This document shows, piece after piece, positions 1,126 to 33,504 of a stretch of 34,585 bases of DNA. The DNA comes from Candidatus Mediterraneibacter surreyensis (GTDB lineage Bacteria > Bacillota > Clostridia > Lachnospirales > Lachnospiraceae). The stretch's first letter is position 1. Every line of letters starts with the position of its first letter. A program made the position numbers and the translations under genes. The stretch spans positions 1 through 34,585 of the forward strand of contig DWYB01000049.1 of the NCBI GenBank assembly GCA_019118885.1. The letters are read 5' to 3'. The notes under the pieces are model-generated. The model was not told where the DNA came from and did no database searches. It worked only from the letters and a program-made list of their open reading frames with translations.

Positions 1126-2421
1126 ATGGACATGGATTGGGATAGAGACACGAAAAAAGTTGATCAGAGTGAAAACAGCGGGGCTGAAAATGGAGTAAAA
1201 CGTCCTGAAAGCAGGAAAACAGGTGGAGGAAGGTTTAGCGCCGGCGTTCTTACAGGCGTCCTTGCCGCGGTACTTATTATGTGCGGCGTATGGGGAGCCT
1301 GGCGGATAATTTCCAATGTAAGGGGAGGAGATTATACATCCGAAAATGTATCCGAGTCAGACGTGGATGACAAACTGGATCTCATCAGCAGTCTGATCGA
1401 AGAGTATTATTTGTATGAGGATGATATTGACAAGCAAGATCTGATAGATGGCATTTACTCTGGCTATGCGGATGCGTTGGGCGATCCGTATACAGAATAT
1501 TATGACGAAGAAGATACAGAGGCTCTTTACGAGTCCACAAGTGGTGAGTACTCCGGGATCGGAGCAACAATGTCACAGAGTCTGGACAGCGGTGAGATCA
1601 CGATAAGCAATGTTTATGAAAACTCTCCAGCGGATAAAGCCGGCATGAAAGAGGGCGATATAATCTATCAGGTGGATGACCATTCTGTGTCAGGTCAGGA
1701 TCTTGAGACAGTGGTATCCTGGATCAAAGGAGAACAGGGAACGGATGTAGTCATCCATGTGCTGAGAAACGGAGAGAAGCTGGAACTGACAGCCACCCGT
1801 GATATCATCGAAGTGCAGACAGTCAGCAGTGAAATGAAAGATAACCAGATCGGATATATAGCGGTGAGCGAGTTTGACAGCGTGACATATGACCAGTTTA
1901 AAGATGCGCTTAATGATCTTGAGTCACAGGGGATGCAAGGGCTTGTTATTGATCTGAGAGGAAATCCGGGAGGCAGCCTGTCGACCGTGACAGATATGCT
2001 GAAACTTCTTTTGCCGAAGGGAACGATCGTATCGACAAAAGATAAGTACGGTAATACCGAAGAGATTACCTGTGATGGAAAGAATGAGTTTACAAAGCCT
2101 TTGGCTGTTCTTGTAAATCAGTACAGTGCGAGTTCTTCGGAAATATTCAGCGGAGCGATACAGGATTACGGCACGGGAACTATTGTCGGTATGACAACAT
2201 ACGGGAAAGGCGTAGTACAGCAGCTCATGGATCTGGGTGACGGAACATGTCTGAAAGTCACCATTGCAGAGTATTATACCCCCAGCGGCAGAAGTATCAA
2301 CGGAACAGGTGTGGAGCCGGATGTGGAAGTAGAATACGAATATGACAAGAATAATCCGGAAGCCGATAACCAGCTTGAAAAAGCGCTGGAAGTCGTGAGC
2401 GGAGAACTGAAACAGGAGTAA
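1126..2421 (+). CDS. S41 family carboxy-terminal processing peptidase (CtpA/CtpB-like) with PDZ domain
   Basis: This is a membrane-anchored serine protease that trims or degrades extracytoplasmic proteins. The 431-aa protein has a charged cytoplasmic lead, one membrane segment at about residues 39-58, a linker, a PDZ domain at about 150-225 and the S41 catalytic fold. Ser336 (in SASSSEI), Lys361 (in YGKG) and Gln365 have the same spacing as the Ser-Lys-Gln triad of B. subtilis CtpB (25 and 4 residues apart), so it should be active. GGAGG at 1117-1121 serves ATG 1126; an in-frame ATG at 1132 has more ordinary spacing and cannot be excluded. A C-terminal peptidase gene near ftsEX is common in clostridia and suits a role in envelope or division turnover. 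Confidence 0.93.
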   Translation: MDMDWDRDTKKVDQSENSGAENGVKRPESRKTGGGRFSAGVLTGVLAAVLIMCGVWGAWRIISNVRGGDYTSENVSESDVDDKLDLISSLIEEYYLYEDDIDKQDLIDGIYSGYADALGDPYTEYYDEEDTEALYESTSGEYSGIGATMSQSLDSGEITISNVYENSPADKAGMKEGDIIYQVDDHSVSGQDLETVVSWIKGEQGTDVVIHVLRNGEKLELTATRDIIEVQTVSSEMKDNQIGYIAVSEFDSVTYDQFKDALNDLESQGMQGLVIDLRGNPGGSLSTVTDMLKLLLPKGTIVSTKDKYGNTEEITCDGKNEFTKPLAVLVNQYSASSSEIFSGAIQDYGTGTIVGMTTYGKGVVQQLMDLGDGTCLKVTIAEYYTPSGRSINGTGVEPDVEVEYEYDKNNPEADNQLEKALEVVSGELKQE

Positions 2422-2538
2422 TGTTTCTGATTGAATTTGATGAAAGGATTATCTCTTTGTCAATGCGAAATCAGAAGAAAATAGTGGATTGTACTCTGAT
2501 AAATGCAAGATTGGAATATTAAACCTGCAAAAAAGGGC

Positions 2539-2567
2539 TTGCAATTTAAAATATGATGTGATATTAT
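2539..2567 (+). promoter_or_regulatory. Sigma-A promoter of the T-box/aspS-gatCAB operon
   Basis: TTGCAA (2539-2544), a 17-nt spacer and TATTAT (2562-2567) form a good sigma-A promoter. The predicted start near 2574 is just ahead of the T-box leader. The stretch 2422-2538 before it shows no gene and no clear terminator for the upstream protease. Confidence 0.75.
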
Positions 2568-2573
2568 TGAAAA

Positions 2574-2931
2574 CATATTTTAACAGACTAAAGTGTTAAA
2601 ATTGATAAAGGCAATGAACAAGACTCTGATTTTCAGAAACTGACAGGAAGCAGGCGTCACCGACTGAGAGCGCCGGACAGCGGAGAAGATCAAGGGAACA
2701 CTTGGGAGCTGACCGTTCGAACAACTGTGAGCATATCATAAAAGTAGGGCGGTACGTGGAGCATACGTTACATGCAAAGAGTGGAACCCTGATCACTTGG
2801 TGAGGTTCTTTCGAACCTAGAGAGCAAGAACTTCCGAAGATCACTTGGGTGAGGGTTCAATGCGGGTGGTACCGCGGATTTTATCTTGATAATTTCCGTC
2901 CCGGGATACTTAAGTATCCCGGGACTTTTTT
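2574..2931 (+). promoter_or_regulatory. T-box riboswitch leader, probable Asn (AAC) specifier
   Basis: The conserved T-box core TGCGGGTGGTACCGCGG lies at 2861-2877, with the tRNA-acceptor-binding bulge TGGT at 2867-2870, and an intrinsic terminator follows at 2898-2931. Upstream is a long Stem I region with the usual GGGAGC-type segment (2704-2709) just 3' of the specifier loop. By position relative to that segment the specifier reads AAC (2697-2699) followed by a purine, which is an Asn codon. This fits the downstream non-discriminating AspRS plus GatCAB, which make Asn-tRNA(Asn). The overlapping triplet GAA (2696-2698) is a Glu codon. Uncharged tRNA would stabilise the antiterminator and switch the operon on. 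The T-box call is very secure; the specifier is my manual alignment and is less so. Confidence 0.93.
2898..2931 (+). terminator. T-box intrinsic terminator
   Basis: A perfect palindrome, GTCCCGGGATACTT (2898-2911) with AAGTATCCCGGGAC (2912-2925), is followed by six T (2926-2931). The first bases (GTCCC) are the usual 3' partner of the T-box antiterminator region, so this is the regulated terminator. Confidence 0.93.
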
Positions 2932-2957
2932 ATTTCTCCGGGATACAGCATCTGAAA

Positions 2958-3121
2958 GTACCAGTTCAGCCATCTGCTGACAGCAGACGGATTTATGCTT
3001 GCATAAGAATCCGGCGGCTGACAGCCAGATGTGTTGAGCGCCTGTACATGAACAAAGCAGCGACGCAGTCGCAGTAAGCACGCTAGTGCGGCTTTGTGAA
3101 TGGCGCGGGCTGAACGGGTAC
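2958..3121 (+). other. Highly structured 164-nt leader insert between T-box terminator and aspS
   Basis: Nested inverted repeats fill this stretch. The closing helix is GTACC..TTCAGCC (2958-2971) with GGCTGAA..GGTAC (3108-3121), 12 bp with a 2x2 internal loop. Inside are ATCTG/CAGAT (2972-2976/3026-3030), two small hairpins sharing a GAC loop (2974-2986 and 3016-3026), and a long hairpin CGGATT..AATCCG (2988-3013). A second arm is GCGCC/GGCGC (3038-3042/3102-3106) leading to ACAAAGC/GCTTTGT (3052-3058/3091-3097), which closes a three-way junction with hairpins at 3060-3072 and 3078-3089. It carries no start codon with a good ribosome binding site and no U-tract. It is not part of a normal T-box. 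It may be a palindromic intergenic repeat inserted into the leader or a second RNA element. Confidence 0.6.
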
Positions 3122-21461: not shown

Positions 21462-22142
21462 ATGAAGTATGAGATTAAAGGAAACGAACTGCCGGTAGTG
21501 ATCTGCTATCTGGAAAACGGAGAAACTATGATTACAGAGCGCGGTTCTATGAGCTGGATGTCACCGAATATGAAGATGGAGACAACTTCAAACGGCGGGA
21601 TCGGGAAAGCACTGGGCAGGATGTTCGCCGGGGAGGCGCTTTTCCAGAACCGGTATACGGCACAGGGCGGCAACGGGATGATCGCGTTCGCTTCCAGTTT
21701 TCCCGGACAGATCAGACCATGGGAGATCGGCCCGGGCAATGAAGTAATTGTTCAGAAATCCGGTTTCCTTGCGGCCGAAGAAAGTGTAGAACTGTCTGTT
21801 TTCTTCCAGAAAAAGCTTGGAGCAGGCTTATTTGGCGGAGAGGGATTTATCATGCAGAGACTTTCCGGACAGGGAATGGCGTTCCTTGAATTTGACGGAC
21901 ATGTGGTGGAATACAATCTGCAGCCGGGGCAGCAGATCGTAATCGACACCGGATATCTGGCGGCAATGGATGCAACCTGCCAGATGGATATCAAGAGCGT
22001 GCCTGGGCTTAAGAACATGGTATTCGGCGGAGAAGGAATCTTTAATACCATTATCACCGGACCGGGCCGGGTGTGGCTGCAGACAATGCCGCTTTCGGGC
22101 GTTGCGGCGGAGATAATGAAATTCATGCCGTCCACAAAATAA
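21462..22142 (+). CDS. AIM24 family protein (TIGR00266-like)
   Basis: The 226-aa protein matches the bacterial AIM24/TIGR00266 family: a compact beta-rich fold with conserved Gly-rich turns (SWMSPNMKMETTSNGGIGKALGRMF cut here as GGIGKALGRMF, GLFGGEGFIMQRL, VFGGEGIFNTIITGPGRVWL). The family is widespread in Firmicutes and its biochemical role is not settled; the yeast homologue affects mitochondrial inner-membrane organisation. No signal peptide or membrane segment is visible. AAAAGGAG precedes ATG 21462. It is transcribed alone, from its own extended -10, and its stop codon directly abuts the structured element at 22143. Confidence 0.88.
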   Translation: MKYEIKGNELPVVICYLENGETMITERGSMSWMSPNMKMETTSNGGIGKALGRMFAGEALFQNRYTAQGGNGMIAFASSFPGQIRPWEIGPGNEVIVQKSGFLAAEESVELSVFFQKKLGAGLFGGEGFIMQRLSGQGMAFLEFDGHVVEYNLQPGQQIVIDTGYLAAMDATCQMDIKSVPGLKNMVFGGEGIFNTIITGPGRVWLQTMPLSGVAAEIMKFMPSTK

Positions 22143-22935
22143 AAAGTTGTGTTTGTCGGACTGAATGCCGATGATATAAGGTACGAAAACAGACGGAGAT
22201 GAGGTACGGGAATACTTCTTTGAGATGACCGGCATGTGCTTCAGGCTCCGCTCCATAATCTGAGAAAAATTAAAGGGTCTGAAATCTGATTAAAGACAAA
22301 GCCGCAAAATGAATAACTCGCCTTCGGCTCAAACAATCCATTTTGCGGCTTAACATCAGCTTCCAGACCCTTAACTTTTTCTAGCAGATTATTCCGAAGT
22401 CGCCTTCTTCACATACCGATCATCTCTTTTCAAGTCTTCCTGCACCCCATTTCCGTCCGTTTTCTACTTCATCGAATCCGGCAGTCATTTCGACAAAACT
22501 GAAAGTGGAAGAAACCGGCTGAAATTGGGACATAGTCGATAAAGTTGACTCTTACGATCAATTTCTAGTAAATCCGTGATTGTCGGAGAGACATTTCCGA
22601 TTGGATGAGTGCAGAAAATCAGTCGAATACAGCCCTTTTGATGAACCTTGCGAGACGTGCGGGGAGGGGGCTGACGGTGACTGTGGAGGAGAATTAGATA
22701 TAGTTAAAGCCTGTGGTGCGGCGTTGATCAGGGAAAGGAGGTTGTTTGAACGAAGTGTGTTCTTCCTTTCCCTGATCGCTTTTAGTCGTATCGCAGGATT
22801 GTTACTATATCTTATGCTCTGTAACCGGAGCCGGAAGCATCCCTCCCCGCACGTCCCGGATACGTGAGTCAACCCACTGTATCCGATTGATTTTCGGACA
22901 ATTTATCATAGAATATCACTCCGACAAACACGAAT
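22143..22935. other. Structured intergenic element B: terminal inverted repeats and nested hairpins
   Basis: No convincing gene occupies these 793 bases. The ends are inverted repeats: GTGTTTGTCGGA (22149-22160) and TCCGACAAACAC (22920-22931), the right one extending into the exact motif AAACACGAAT (22926-22935). Inside, the right half is nested: ATTGTC/GACAAT (22579/22897), a perfect 15-bp GC-rich helix (22654-22668/22841-22855), AGATATAGT/ACTATATCT (22696/22804) and a perfect 14-bp hairpin GATCAGGGAAAGGA (22726-22739/22764-22777). The left half holds a long terminator-like hairpin (22263-22382) and a stem CTGAATGCCG (22161-22170). Element A at 32322-33006 has the same end core and layout. 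Nature unknown: a MITE-like or palindromic repeat, or a long structured RNA. Confidence 0.65.
22263..22382. terminator. Long bidirectional terminator-like hairpin inside element B
   Basis: The outer stem (22263-22281 with 22364-22382, 19 positions, two mismatches) has A-rich and T-rich outer ends. The inner stem is a perfect 13 bp, AAGCCGCAAAATG (22299-22311) with CATTTTGCGGCTT (22339-22351), and the loop contains GCC-TTC-GGC. It would stop transcription from the AIM24 gene and also from the opposite side. Confidence 0.75.
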
Positions 22936-22948
22936 TATACAAAAATCC

Positions 22949-30582: not shown

Positions 30583-31392
30583 ATGAAAGAAAAAAGCATG
30601 AAATTAGGATTTATCGGAACAGGAAATATGGCAGGCGCCATCATGGGCGGTATTATAAAAAACGAGATCTTCAGACCGGATGAGATCATCGGTGCGGATA
30701 TCTCCCCGGCAGGACGGGAGCGGGTGAAAGAGACTTACGGGATCCATGTGACGGACAGCAACTGCGAGGCGGCAGAGAATTCAGAAGTACTGATCCTCTC
30801 TGTAAAACCCCAGTTTTATGCAGATGCTATATCCGAGATAAAAGACTGTATCAGCGAAGAGCAGCTTATCATAACGATCGCACCGGGGAAAACGCTTGAA
30901 TGGCTGGAACAGCAGTTCACAAAGCCGGTGAAGATCGTGCGCACCATGCCGAACACCCCGGCTCTCGTAGGAGAGGGAATGACTGCAGCATGCACAAACC
31001 AGTACGTGACAGAAGAGGAAAAAGAGTATGCGCTTAAGATTCTCAGCTCTTTTGGAAAAGTGGAAGTCATACCGGAGCATCTGATCGATGCTGTAGTGGC
31101 AGTGAGCGGAAGTTCACCGGCCTATGTGTTTATGTTCATCGAGGCAATGGCGGATGCTGCCGTAGCCGAGGGAATGCCAAGGCCCCAGGCATACCAGTTT
31201 GCTGCTCAGGCGGTGTATGGAAGCGCAAAGATGGTACTGGAGACAGGAAAGCATCCAGGCGAATTAAAGGATATGGTATGCTCCCCTGCAGGAACAACCA
31301 TTGAAGCAGTGCGGGTGCTTGAGGAAAAAGGATTCCGCAGCGCCGTGATCGAAGCGATGAAAGCGTGCGCGGATGTGTCGAGAAATATGTAA
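30583..31392 (+). CDS. proC: Pyrroline-5-carboxylate reductase
   Basis: ProC reduces 1-pyrroline-5-carboxylate to proline with NAD(P)H, the last step of proline synthesis. The 269-aa protein has the Rossmann motif GFIGTGNMAGAI near the amino end, RTMPNTPALVGEGMTA in the middle, and the substrate-binding carboxy block AVSGSSPAYVFMFIEAMADA ... SPAGTTIEAVRVLEE. An in-frame ATG at 30601 (MKLGFIG) is an alternative start. A tRNA or arginine-related regulator is not visible; it is probably transcribed from the acylphosphatase promoter. Confidence 0.96.
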   Translation: MKEKSMKLGFIGTGNMAGAIMGGIIKNEIFRPDEIIGADISPAGRERVKETYGIHVTDSNCEAAENSEVLILSVKPQFYADAISEIKDCISEEQLIITIAPGKTLEWLEQQFTKPVKIVRTMPNTPALVGEGMTAACTNQYVTEEEKEYALKILSSFGKVEVIPEHLIDAVVAVSGSSPAYVFMFIEAMADAAVAEGMPRPQAYQFAAQAVYGSAKMVLETGKHPGELKDMVCSPAGTTIEAVRVLEEKGFRSAVIEAMKACADVSRNM

Positions 31393-31418
31393 AAAGCAGA
31401 AAAAGAGGATTGATAATT

Positions 31419-32324
31419 ATGTATGATATTGGAATTATAGGCGGGGGAACCGCCGGAATGACAGCGGCCATATATGGACAGCGCGCAGGAAAACAGACAG
31501 TTATCATTGAAGGCAGTACGTTCGGCGGACAGATCACCTCATCCCCCAATGTAGAAAACTATCCCGGTATTGCCAGCGTAAGCGGAAGTGAATTCTCCAT
31601 GAACCTTCTGGATCAGGCAACGAAACTGGGAGCTGAGACGGTGATGGAACAGGTGACCGGAATCCGCGACGAAGGAAAGGTAAAGGTAATCCAGACTGCG
31701 GGAAAGGAATATCCTTGCAGAAGCATCATACTTGCGACCGGGGTGACCCACCGCCATCTGGGAGTACCGAATGAAGAACGCCTGACAGGCGCAGGAGTCT
31801 CCTACTGCGCAACGTGCGACGGCATGTTCTTCCGCGGGAAAGACGTGGCTGTAGTCGGCGGCGGAAGCACAGCCCTGCAGGACGCTGAATTCCTTGCAAA
31901 TTACTGCAATAAAGTCTATCTGATCCACCGCAGGGATGAGTTCCGGGGCGAAGACAGTATCGTAAAACGCCTTGAAGGAAAAGAAAACGTAGAGTTTTTG
32001 CTGAGCATGACGGTAAAAGAAATCATCGGCGATGCCATGGTTGAGGGATTGATCCTCAATAATAAAAAAACAGGAGAGGAGTCCAGACTGTATGTCTCCG
32101 GCGTATTCATTGCCGTAGGACAGATCCCTAAGAATGAAATGTTTGCAGATACCGTAAAGCTCGACGGCAGCGGCTTCATACTTGCAGCCGAGGACTGTAT
32201 CACATCACATCCGGGAATCTTTGCCGCAGGAGACTGCCGAACAAAGGAAGTAAGACAGCTCACCACAGCGGCAGCCGACGGAGCAGTGGCAGCGCTGGCG
32301 GCGTGTAAATATATAGCGGAATAA
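31419..32324 (+). CDS. trxB: Thioredoxin reductase family FAD/NAD(P)H oxidoreductase
   Basis: The 301-aa protein is a low-molecular-weight thioredoxin reductase: FAD-binding GIIGGGTAGMTAAIYG (5-20), redox-active Cys130-Ala-Thr-Cys133 in GVSYCATCDGMF, NAD(P)H-binding VAVVGGGSTALQDA and the terminal FAD motif PGIFAAGDCRTKEVRQLTTA. It reduces thioredoxin, or possibly ferredoxin-linked partners, using NADPH. ATG 31419 fits the family opening MYDIGIIGGG and has AGAGG upstream; an in-frame start at 31365 would overlap proC. The stop codon TAA (32322-32324) is the first triplet of the terminal repeat of element A. Confidence 0.92.
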   Translation: MYDIGIIGGGTAGMTAAIYGQRAGKQTVIIEGSTFGGQITSSPNVENYPGIASVSGSEFSMNLLDQATKLGAETVMEQVTGIRDEGKVKVIQTAGKEYPCRSIILATGVTHRHLGVPNEERLTGAGVSYCATCDGMFFRGKDVAVVGGGSTALQDAEFLANYCNKVYLIHRRDEFRGEDSIVKRLEGKENVEFLLSMTVKEIIGDAMVEGLILNNKKTGEESRLYVSGVFIAVGQIPKNEMFADTVKLDGSGFILAAEDCITSHPGIFAAGDCRTKEVRQLTTAAADGAVAALAACKYIAE

Positions 32325-32459
32325 ATTCGTGTTTGTTCCAGAGATTATGTAATATTCCGGGGAGAAAATATCAGATCGATCAGCGGACGCAAAAAAAGAC
32401 GGAACTGCATCGCCATGCCGGCCCGCTCTACCTCAAAGATTTGAATGGATGTAACGGAG

Positions 32460-32869
32460 AAAGGAAATGCTCGTTCATTGGTACTCGCATTTCCTTTCTC
32501 CTAACATCCAGAACAAATGCTTTTCGGAACGCTCCTGCCTTGACGCATGGCTCACGCAGTTCCGTCTTTTTTGCTGGTTCATCCGATCGATAGATTTCCC
32601 ATCCTATAATCGCAACAATCTCTTAACAAATACTCATAGAAACGGGAAGAGGTCGGAGCTGGTCGATAACGCTCCCCTTTCTTCCCGTTTTTACGAATGT
32701 TTGTTTATAGGATACACTGTAGATAATCAGAAAATCTGACGTCTGATACGCCAGCTGAGAGAAACGGATACTGTATCAGCCATGCATTAAGGCAGGAGCG
32801 TTCCGAATACACCTGGTTTTCACTGTTAAAAAAAGGAAATGCGAGTTCCAATGAACGAACATTTCCTTT
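32460..32869. repeat. Inverted 38-nt repeats that are themselves hairpins
   Basis: Copies at 32460-32497 and 32832-32869 are reverse complements (36 of 38 positions). Each also folds on itself: the left copy lies in a 15-bp perfect stem GGAGAAAGGAAATGC (32456-32470/32487-32501), the right one in an A/T-rich AAAAAAGGAAATG stem. The loops are complementary to each other, so the copies can form two hairpins, a kissing pair or one long duplex. Confidence 0.8.
32640..32692 (+). terminator. Terminator hairpin at the centre of element A
   Basis: AAACGGGAAG (32640-32649) pairs with CTTCCCGTTT (32681-32690), with an inner GGAGC/GCTCC (32655-32659/32671-32675), and five T end at 32692. It lies at the apex of the large palindrome. 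Confidence 0.75.
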
Positions 32870-33003
32870 TTTGTTACAGGGATCCCAGGGGATGAGGAGG
32901 AGCGGGCCGGCATGGCGTTACAGTATCCGCTTCTCTCAGCGTCCGCAATTCAGACCCTGTCAGTTTTTCTGTTTTTGCTGGATCTTATATAACAAACACG
33001 AAT

Positions 33004-33504
33004 TTAATCCTGAAACATCTTCATCCCCATCCACTGTTTCATATGATCGATCATCTTCGCATCGGGCTCGATATAGATGCAGACATTTTTCTGATCCATA
33101 GGCATCATGATAGCATATGCCTTTCCGGACGGATTGCCTGAGCTGTAATCGTACACTTTATCCGGTTTATATGAGTGTAATCTCGGAGATCCTTTCGGCG
33201 CAATGATCTCTGCGCTCTGGATATCCAGATTTTTCAGCCGTTTACGTTTTGATTTGTTGTAGATAGCATCGATCTGCAGATCGTGGTTGAGTATGATATA
33301 TTCATATTCTACATTAAGCTTCGGAAAGACGAAATAATATGCAAGAACTGCCAGGATAACGGCGATCACAAATGACAGGATTCCGATAAAAGGCATCCCA
33401 AGCACTGCCACTGCCACGATCACAAGGATTATCAGGATGCGGAGCGGAAGGTCATATGGTTTTGGTCTGCGGGCTATAAGCTGTTCATATAATGCATCGT
33501 TCAT
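33004..33504 (-). CDS. Conserved hypothetical two-segment membrane protein
   Basis: The 166-aa protein has a short cytoplasmic start (NDALYEQLIARRPKPYDLPL), two adjacent membrane segments (about 21-40 and 42-60), then a beta-rich cytoplasmic domain of about 100 residues (YEYIILNHDLQIDAIYNKSK ... AYAIMMPMDQKNVCIYIEPD) that recalls bacterial PH-like domains. It resembles small Lachnospiraceae proteins of unassigned function. A ribosome site (GAAAGGAAC region) precedes ATG 33504, 2 nt after the regulator gene, so the two are co-translated. The stop codon is shared with the right terminal repeat of element A. No function can be given. Confidence 0.75.
   Translation of the reverse strand: MNDALYEQLIARRPKPYDLPLRILIILVIVAVAVLGMPFIGILSFVIAVILAVLAYYFVFPKLNVEYEYIILNHDLQIDAIYNKSKRKRLKNLDIQSAEIIAPKGSPRLHSYKPDKVYDYSSGNPSGKAYAIMMPMDQKNVCIYIEPDAKMIDHMKQWMGMKMFQD

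Follow-up and report, generated by a model that had tools for sequence, protein, structure and literature searches.

The stretch of DNA analysed here (the window) comprises 34,585 nt of a Candidatus Mediterraneibacter surreyensis contig. Within it, two convergent genes, a Pyr_redox_2 gene whose product we take to be thioredoxin-reductase-like and a DUF6106 gene, are separated by a near-palindrome that runs from the stop codon of one gene to the stop codon of the other (Table 1). Its layout is that of 16-bp terminal inverted repeats enclosing two inverted hairpin modules of ∼180 nt, A and B, which flank a central hairpin. Since the element is an inverted pair of related modules, it matches its own reverse complement at ∼70%. 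A second element of the window starts 2 nt past the stop of an AIM24-family gene (21462–22142).

Table 1. Features of the element, its neighbouring genes and the second element of the window
Feature	Position	Strand	Remarks
Pyr_redox_2 gene, left neighbour	31365–32324	+	TAA at 32322–32324
Whole element, near-palindrome	32322–33006		685 bp; stop codon to stop codon, convergent genes
Left terminal inverted repeat, TAAATTCGTGTTTGTT	32322–32337	+	Begins with the stop codon of the + gene (first 3 bases)
Right terminal inverted repeat	32991–33006	−	Ends with the stop codon of the − gene (last 3 bases); complementary to the left repeat at 16/16 positions
8-bp arm, GCGGACGC	32383–32390 / 32939–32946		By reading of the sequence
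18-bp arm	32411–32428 / 32900–32917		By reading of the sequence
38-nt apical arm, module A	32460–32497	+	Complementary to the arm of module B at 36/38 positions
38-nt apical arm, module B	32832–32869	−
Next arm inward	32491–32560 / 32770–32839		71% over 70 nt
Module A hairpin	32392–32572	+	Conserved core 32412–32538, 146.6 bits (covariance model)
Helix closing module A	32392–32408 / 32556–32572		17/17 paired
Module B hairpin	32754–32940	−	Inverted relative to A; core 32792–32916, 125.7 bits
Helix closing module B	32754–32775 / 32919–32940		21/22 paired
Central hairpin, AAACGGGAAGA / TCTTCCCGTTT	32640–32690		By reading; similar in aligned copies
DUF6106 gene, right neighbour, convergent	33004–33504	−	Stop at 33006–33004
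Second element of the window	22145–22935 (interval 22143–22945)		Same kind of terminal repeat, left copy diverged; other hairpins

The original prediction, made from the sequence of the window, had described five nested pairs of inverted repeats, terminal repeats that begin with the stop codons of the neighbouring genes, and two helices of 17 and 21 positions that compete with the nested arrangement. All of these were recovered (Table 1). It had also proposed two alternative global folds, and both exist: the 38-nt arm of module A pairs with module B in the giant fold and with itself in the two-arm fold. The two are not equivalent, with the giant hairpin clearly more stable in the ten copies tested, where a three-piece fold (left, centre, right) is 42–81 kcal/mol costlier than the single fold on both strands (RNA parameters, cut points from the window copy); DNA folding parameters applied to three copies agree. 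The availability of both a whole-element hairpin and side-by-side hairpins follows from the inverted pairing of two hairpins, so that the dual fold needs no switch. As an RNA, the element reaches minimum free energies of −326.1 kcal/mol on the + strand (z −18.0) and −340.4 kcal/mol on the − strand (z −30.5), in each case with 0 of 20 shuffles reaching the value. It holds 58 inverted 10-mer pairs, and in a scan of the window only 12 of 339 sliding 685-bp stretches held at least 10 such pairs, seven of them starting at 31.9–32.5 kb and five at 22.2–22.6 kb. An ordinary terminator was rejected as a sufficient explanation of the region, which holds one terminator-like site against 0.9 expected.

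A genome-wide search, which had been proposed together with the prediction, turned up many dispersed copies as well as relatives across the genus. In the source genome, where the element search returned 52 match rows, ten places carry near-full-length copies (633–688 bp aligned), the window copy included, along with several truncated ones, and the nine others are 84–90% identical to the window copy. A covariance model of the module core (127 positions, built from 35 sequences) found the core in 44 of 58 genus genomes, with modules largely paired as + then −, though solo modules occur too. These counts are the opposite of a unique single copy without relatives, the outcome that the prediction had set against itself. 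Within a family sample of 150 genomes, one per genus with the source genome included, the core was found in one of the 149 other Lachnospiraceae genera (G107, best E 3.8e-11), in a search that scored 23 candidates per genome and may miss weak relatives. In a wider collection the scan picked up 87 stretches, whose records bear the names Mediterraneibacter, Lachnoclostridium, Ruminococcus, Lachnospiraceae or Eubacteriales. A phage or plasmid origin was rejected, as the element had no match in phages and plasmids and the module pattern had 0 matches in viral contigs. No account of this repeat family appeared among the literature matches listed.

The base pairs of the module were analysed across the 35 sequences, in which 97.5% of 1077 cells are paired, as opposed to 78.8% in shuffles and 30–45% when the partner is slid by 1–3 columns. 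Cells changed on both sides number 194 versus 65.5 in shuffles, and the covariation score is 0.456 versus 0.135, with 0 of 500 shuffles reaching either value; 21 of the 31 pairs have changed on both sides. The number of further pair types was not above shuffles (204 of 500 reach the observed value), and part of the covariation is a single A/B split, with more kinds of variation in the inner stem. Across 4093 cells from 133 distinct modules, the mismatches on the modelled strand comprise 97 A·C versus 29 G·T cells, an asymmetry with p about 1e-9 under an independence that the cells do not have. Since G·T is the commoner of the two on the opposite strand, this suggests that the strand opposite to the modelled one is the strand that folds, which fits either single-stranded DNA or RNA.

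The terminal repeat (AATTCGTGTTTGT) bounds elements with very different interiors. In the source genome, ATTYGTGTTTG has 36 matches versus 3 for a reversed control, and ATTCGTGTTTG has 96 matches versus 2 for its control in eight relatives. When the halves of 38 elements were clustered, they fell into clusters of 50, 18 and 3 halves plus five single ones, modules A and B sharing one half type; the combinations 0-0, 0-1, 1-1 and 1-2 were seen, though for L046 and L155, which are the shortest elements, the half types carry little meaning. In the second element of the window, half types 2 and 1 are combined, and its arms are matched at 13/16 positions. An element of 1302 bp (L244) reads as a chain of terminal-repeat/module units. 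The two arms of an element also tend to change together: 13 identical double changes were counted versus a permutation mean of 2.7 and a maximum of 8 in 5000, though there are 42 cells in which the arms differ.

The fit between stop codons recurs in other copies. Out of 100 element ends, 67 lie within −8 to +12 nt of the stop of a gene pointing inward, versus 232 of 1700 random intergenic positions, and elements are stop-flush at both ends in 22 of 50 cases, at one end in 23 and at neither in 5. These counts cover all 38 clustered elements (L040 with its outer ends) and 12 hand-chosen ones, take same-site elements of different species separately, and score L189 as a miss because its fetched left flank is too short for the ORF limit; an earlier count covered 34 of the 38 and omitted the L040 inner match, L078, L082 and L108. 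For an element to abut both stops, the terminator DNA that was there before must have been lost, and simple insertion does not account for such a loss.

Comparison between species, which had been suggested for strains, revealed presence and absence of elements at the same sites. For the gene pair of the window element (locus 1), 12 loci were fetched, three of them partial, and in the nine genomes with both flanks the stop-to-stop distances are 32, 221, 268, 275, 419, 456, 560, 679 and 795 nt. The terminal repeat, with small changes allowed, bounds the interval on both sides in five of these nine genomes, on the right alone in two and on neither side in two, and different species carry unrelated interiors. 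At locus 1, G002 and G046 carry relatives of the second window element, as judged by a shared half type, and so by reading does G063, whose 2.4-kb repeat-bounded element has two open reading frames without a Pfam family. Short hairpins of the form GTGTTTG-N(2-30)-CAAACAC occur at 5 places, in 5 of 58 genomes, versus 14 for the reversed-pattern control, and so are not dispersed. The 32-bp hairpin at locus 1 of G069 therefore looks like an internal deletion. At a second locus, five relatives have 13–76 nt without an element, some with ordinary-looking hairpins, and five other loci were partial. Locus 1 is a hypervariable site in some species. Its gene pair was also seen split by about 10–18 kb of other genes in G061, G057 and G068 (L191, L192, L202).

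Inverted modules can enclose genes, and the enclosed genes vary by species at the same site. At a convergent site whose flanking genes are presumably acyltransferase-like and symporter-like, what lies between the modules in L018 is a weakly CPBP-like gene, whose 19.8 bits fall short of the Pfam cut-off, and in L115 genes for a ParE toxin, a RelB antitoxin and DUF2000; L128 has the same reading frames as L115. In M. catenae (L020, 1571–8053), two inverted copies of module A, alike over the matched stretch, lie about 6 kb apart around a block of genes that we take to be ABC-transporter-like.

The source genome (G000) and that of a sister species (G049) have many element sites in common, which allowed orientations to be compared. 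Elements are inverted in place at 5 of 7 comparable sites (L028/L170, L030/L158, L035/L174, L036/L177, L037/L169) and have the same orientation at two (L027/L171 and L026/L176, the latter cut by a contig end). Remnants in G049 comprise a right half in the same orientation (L029/L180) and, at the window site, the centre only, inverted (L146); with them the count of inversions becomes 6 of 9. Eight orthologous pairs were compared: in five of them another copy matches better than the orthologue, in two the orthologue matches best and in one there is a tie. Besides repeated insertion, conversion among copies could thus account for the pattern.

Outside G052, the few elements and module pairs with room for a transposase (L189, L244; L018, L020, L101, L115, L128) contained none, and no autonomous transposon with the same ends was found among the elements read, in a genus search that was not exhaustive. 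A RAYT-like gene (68.4 bits for NCBIfam REP_Tyr_transpos, below the cut-off of 80; Y1_Tnp above its cut-off) was not supported as the mover, being neither linked to nor correlated with the modules. With every homologue at E ≤ 0.001 accepted, even where a genome has none closer than 34–44% identity, RAYT is present in 29 of 44 module-bearing and 9 of 14 module-free genomes (Fisher p = 1.0), and 0 of 18 RAYT loci have a convincing module nearby (one match at E 1.2). In 17 of these 18 loci (L226–L243) the gene was seen at the same place, without an obvious partner repeat, adjoining what we take to be a glycyl-tRNA synthetase gene. IS200-type Y1 genes were also seen. In the closed genome G052, which has 66 module matches, Rpn (Transposase_31) occurs as three copies between or beside elements (L268, L271, L278), in blocks 91–97% alike, with a fourth match in L220; among 283 fetched records, for the most part short element-flanking stretches, Rpn had no match in other genomes, and a scan of viral contigs gave no confirmed relative.

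In architecture and behaviour the element is REPIN/BIME-like at several times the scale, with MITE-like ends. A REPIN consists of two REP sequences in inverted arrangement (Bertels and Rainey 2011, PMC3116915), REPs are 20–40 bp long (PMC3733652), and a supplementary-figure legend of PMC3116915 describes a whole-element hairpin versus two side-by-side hairpins. On that description the element shares with REPINs an inverted hairpin pair foldable as one or two, compensatory changes, and an extragenic, multicopy and non-autonomous occurrence. Unlike them, it measures 685 bp with ∼180-nt modules (127 positions in the core model), carries 16-bp terminal repeats, showed no RAYT link on testing and can enclose genes; since that link was tested and not found, we do not file the element as a REPIN. 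BIMEs are described as mosaics of REPs in alternating orientation (PMC2817692), and the element likewise uses a few module types as a mosaic in alternating orientation between genes, but its modules are several times larger, have a common terminal repeat and sit flush between stop codons. With MITEs, as reviewed in PMC10969869, it has in common its non-autonomous nature, terminal inverted repeats on dispersed non-coding copies, intergenic position and stable folds, whereas neither a cognate transposase nor a consistent target duplication was found in the elements read, and the element contains two covarying hairpin modules. PMC10969869 reports inversion of the Correia element, a bacterial MITE found mostly upstream of genes; copies of the element also appear inverted, but they prefer gene 3′ ends. 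SPRITE, BOX and RUP of S. pneumoniae are described there as structured repeats between Firmicute genes that can insert into each other, with SPRITE being terminator-like (PMC10969869). The likeness to the element is that of intergenic structured repeats in Firmicutes. The three differ from it in size and architecture.

These comparisons leave several explanations to be weighed. An ordinary MITE, in which a DDE transposase would cut double-stranded DNA at AATTCGTGTTTGT with the hairpins as passengers, could account for terminal repeats common to elements with unrelated interiors, and in some copies the flanks show TA on both sides (by inspection), as for IS630-type TA duplication. However, the TA flanks are inconsistent, and no consistent target-site duplication was found at element flanks in aligned copies and 38 elements. 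IS630 transposases do lie within two element copies of G052 (L269, about 1656–3054, and L270, same position), but the two, 55% identical to each other (tblastn), lie by reading at an identical site, a CTAG bordering the nested palindromic repeat of ∼200 bp that both copies carry, and the one in L269 has its own inverted ends (CTAGTATAATCCAC / GTGGATTATACTAG), so that they look like later insertions. Such a MITE would also leave the covariation of the modules unexplained, and we regard it as unlikely. Covariation of this strength, the position at gene 3′ ends and the A·C/G·T asymmetry, as one functional single strand would give, would favour instead a functional RNA, either a bidirectional terminator or an antisense RNA located at gene ends, which recombination would have spread and homogenised. 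Yet the asymmetry fits single-stranded DNA equally and comes from cells that are not independent, and relatives hold other sequence or a 32-nt remnant at the site. Rfam gave 0 matches at gathering score and two weak, chance-like ones (E 0.16 and 0.18; 21.5 bits versus a gathering score of 73), and the region has 0 sigma-70-like promoters versus 1.4 in shuffles. The large switching RNA that had been offered as an alternative was not borne out by the same searches, and while an RNA function of the element is possible, we find this account of its origin quite improbable.

It is equally improbable, in our estimation, that no transposition takes place at present and that old copies are altered in place by ectopic gene conversion and by template switching across the palindrome. 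The flipped orientations at sites common to G000 and G049, the better match to another copy in 5 of 8 orthologous pairs, and the recombined flanks of L175, where left flanks from two distinct G000 sites are brought together, are what such a process would leave. Against it stand the unrelated interiors of different species at one site and the pair L035/L174, 99.3% identical when inverted between flanks of only 87% and 92%. A further thought, which we would call doubtful, is that stop-to-stop cassettes are involved, in which the terminal repeats hold fixed convergent-gene sites and a new hairpin-recognising enzyme exchanges and inverts structured halves, and even genes, between species; if an enzyme does exchange genes between inverted modules, this would explain a class of hypervariable convergent intergenic sites.

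The reading that we favour, and consider probable from comparison of the sequences, is that the element is a mobile but non-autonomous palindrome with the build of a giant REPIN/BIME. A mobile palindromic element had been foreseen by the original prediction, and the dispersed copies, common terminal repeats, presence or absence at sites between species and the 99.3% pair appear to support it well, as far as genome sequences can. Its unit joins a terminal repeat (AATTCGTGTTTGT) to a covarying hairpin module, and a back-to-back inverted pair of such units gives the 685-bp element; either half can be replaced by other modules, and genes can lie between two modules in inverted orientation. Single-stranded DNA recognition has been proposed for REPINs and is known for the ends of IS200/IS605. 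A trans-acting enzyme may similarly recognise the hairpins and terminal repeats of the element, probably in single-stranded DNA. Gene 3′ ends would be harmless places to insert, and for that reason would either be hit or retain their insertions under selection. The long symmetry could let the element flip in place and keep its arms matched, by template switching or inter-copy conversion.

On this reading the REPIN/BIME idea extends, in a gut genus, to hairpins that are much larger and is tied to a precise genomic position, the last base of genes. An enzyme that moves the element, if there is one, would insert precisely and harmlessly at gene ends. The genome may also be rearranged at element copies, as the joined flanks of L175 would indicate unless that contig is an assembly error. 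Outside the genus, distant relatives of the modules were observed in G107 (L279–L282).
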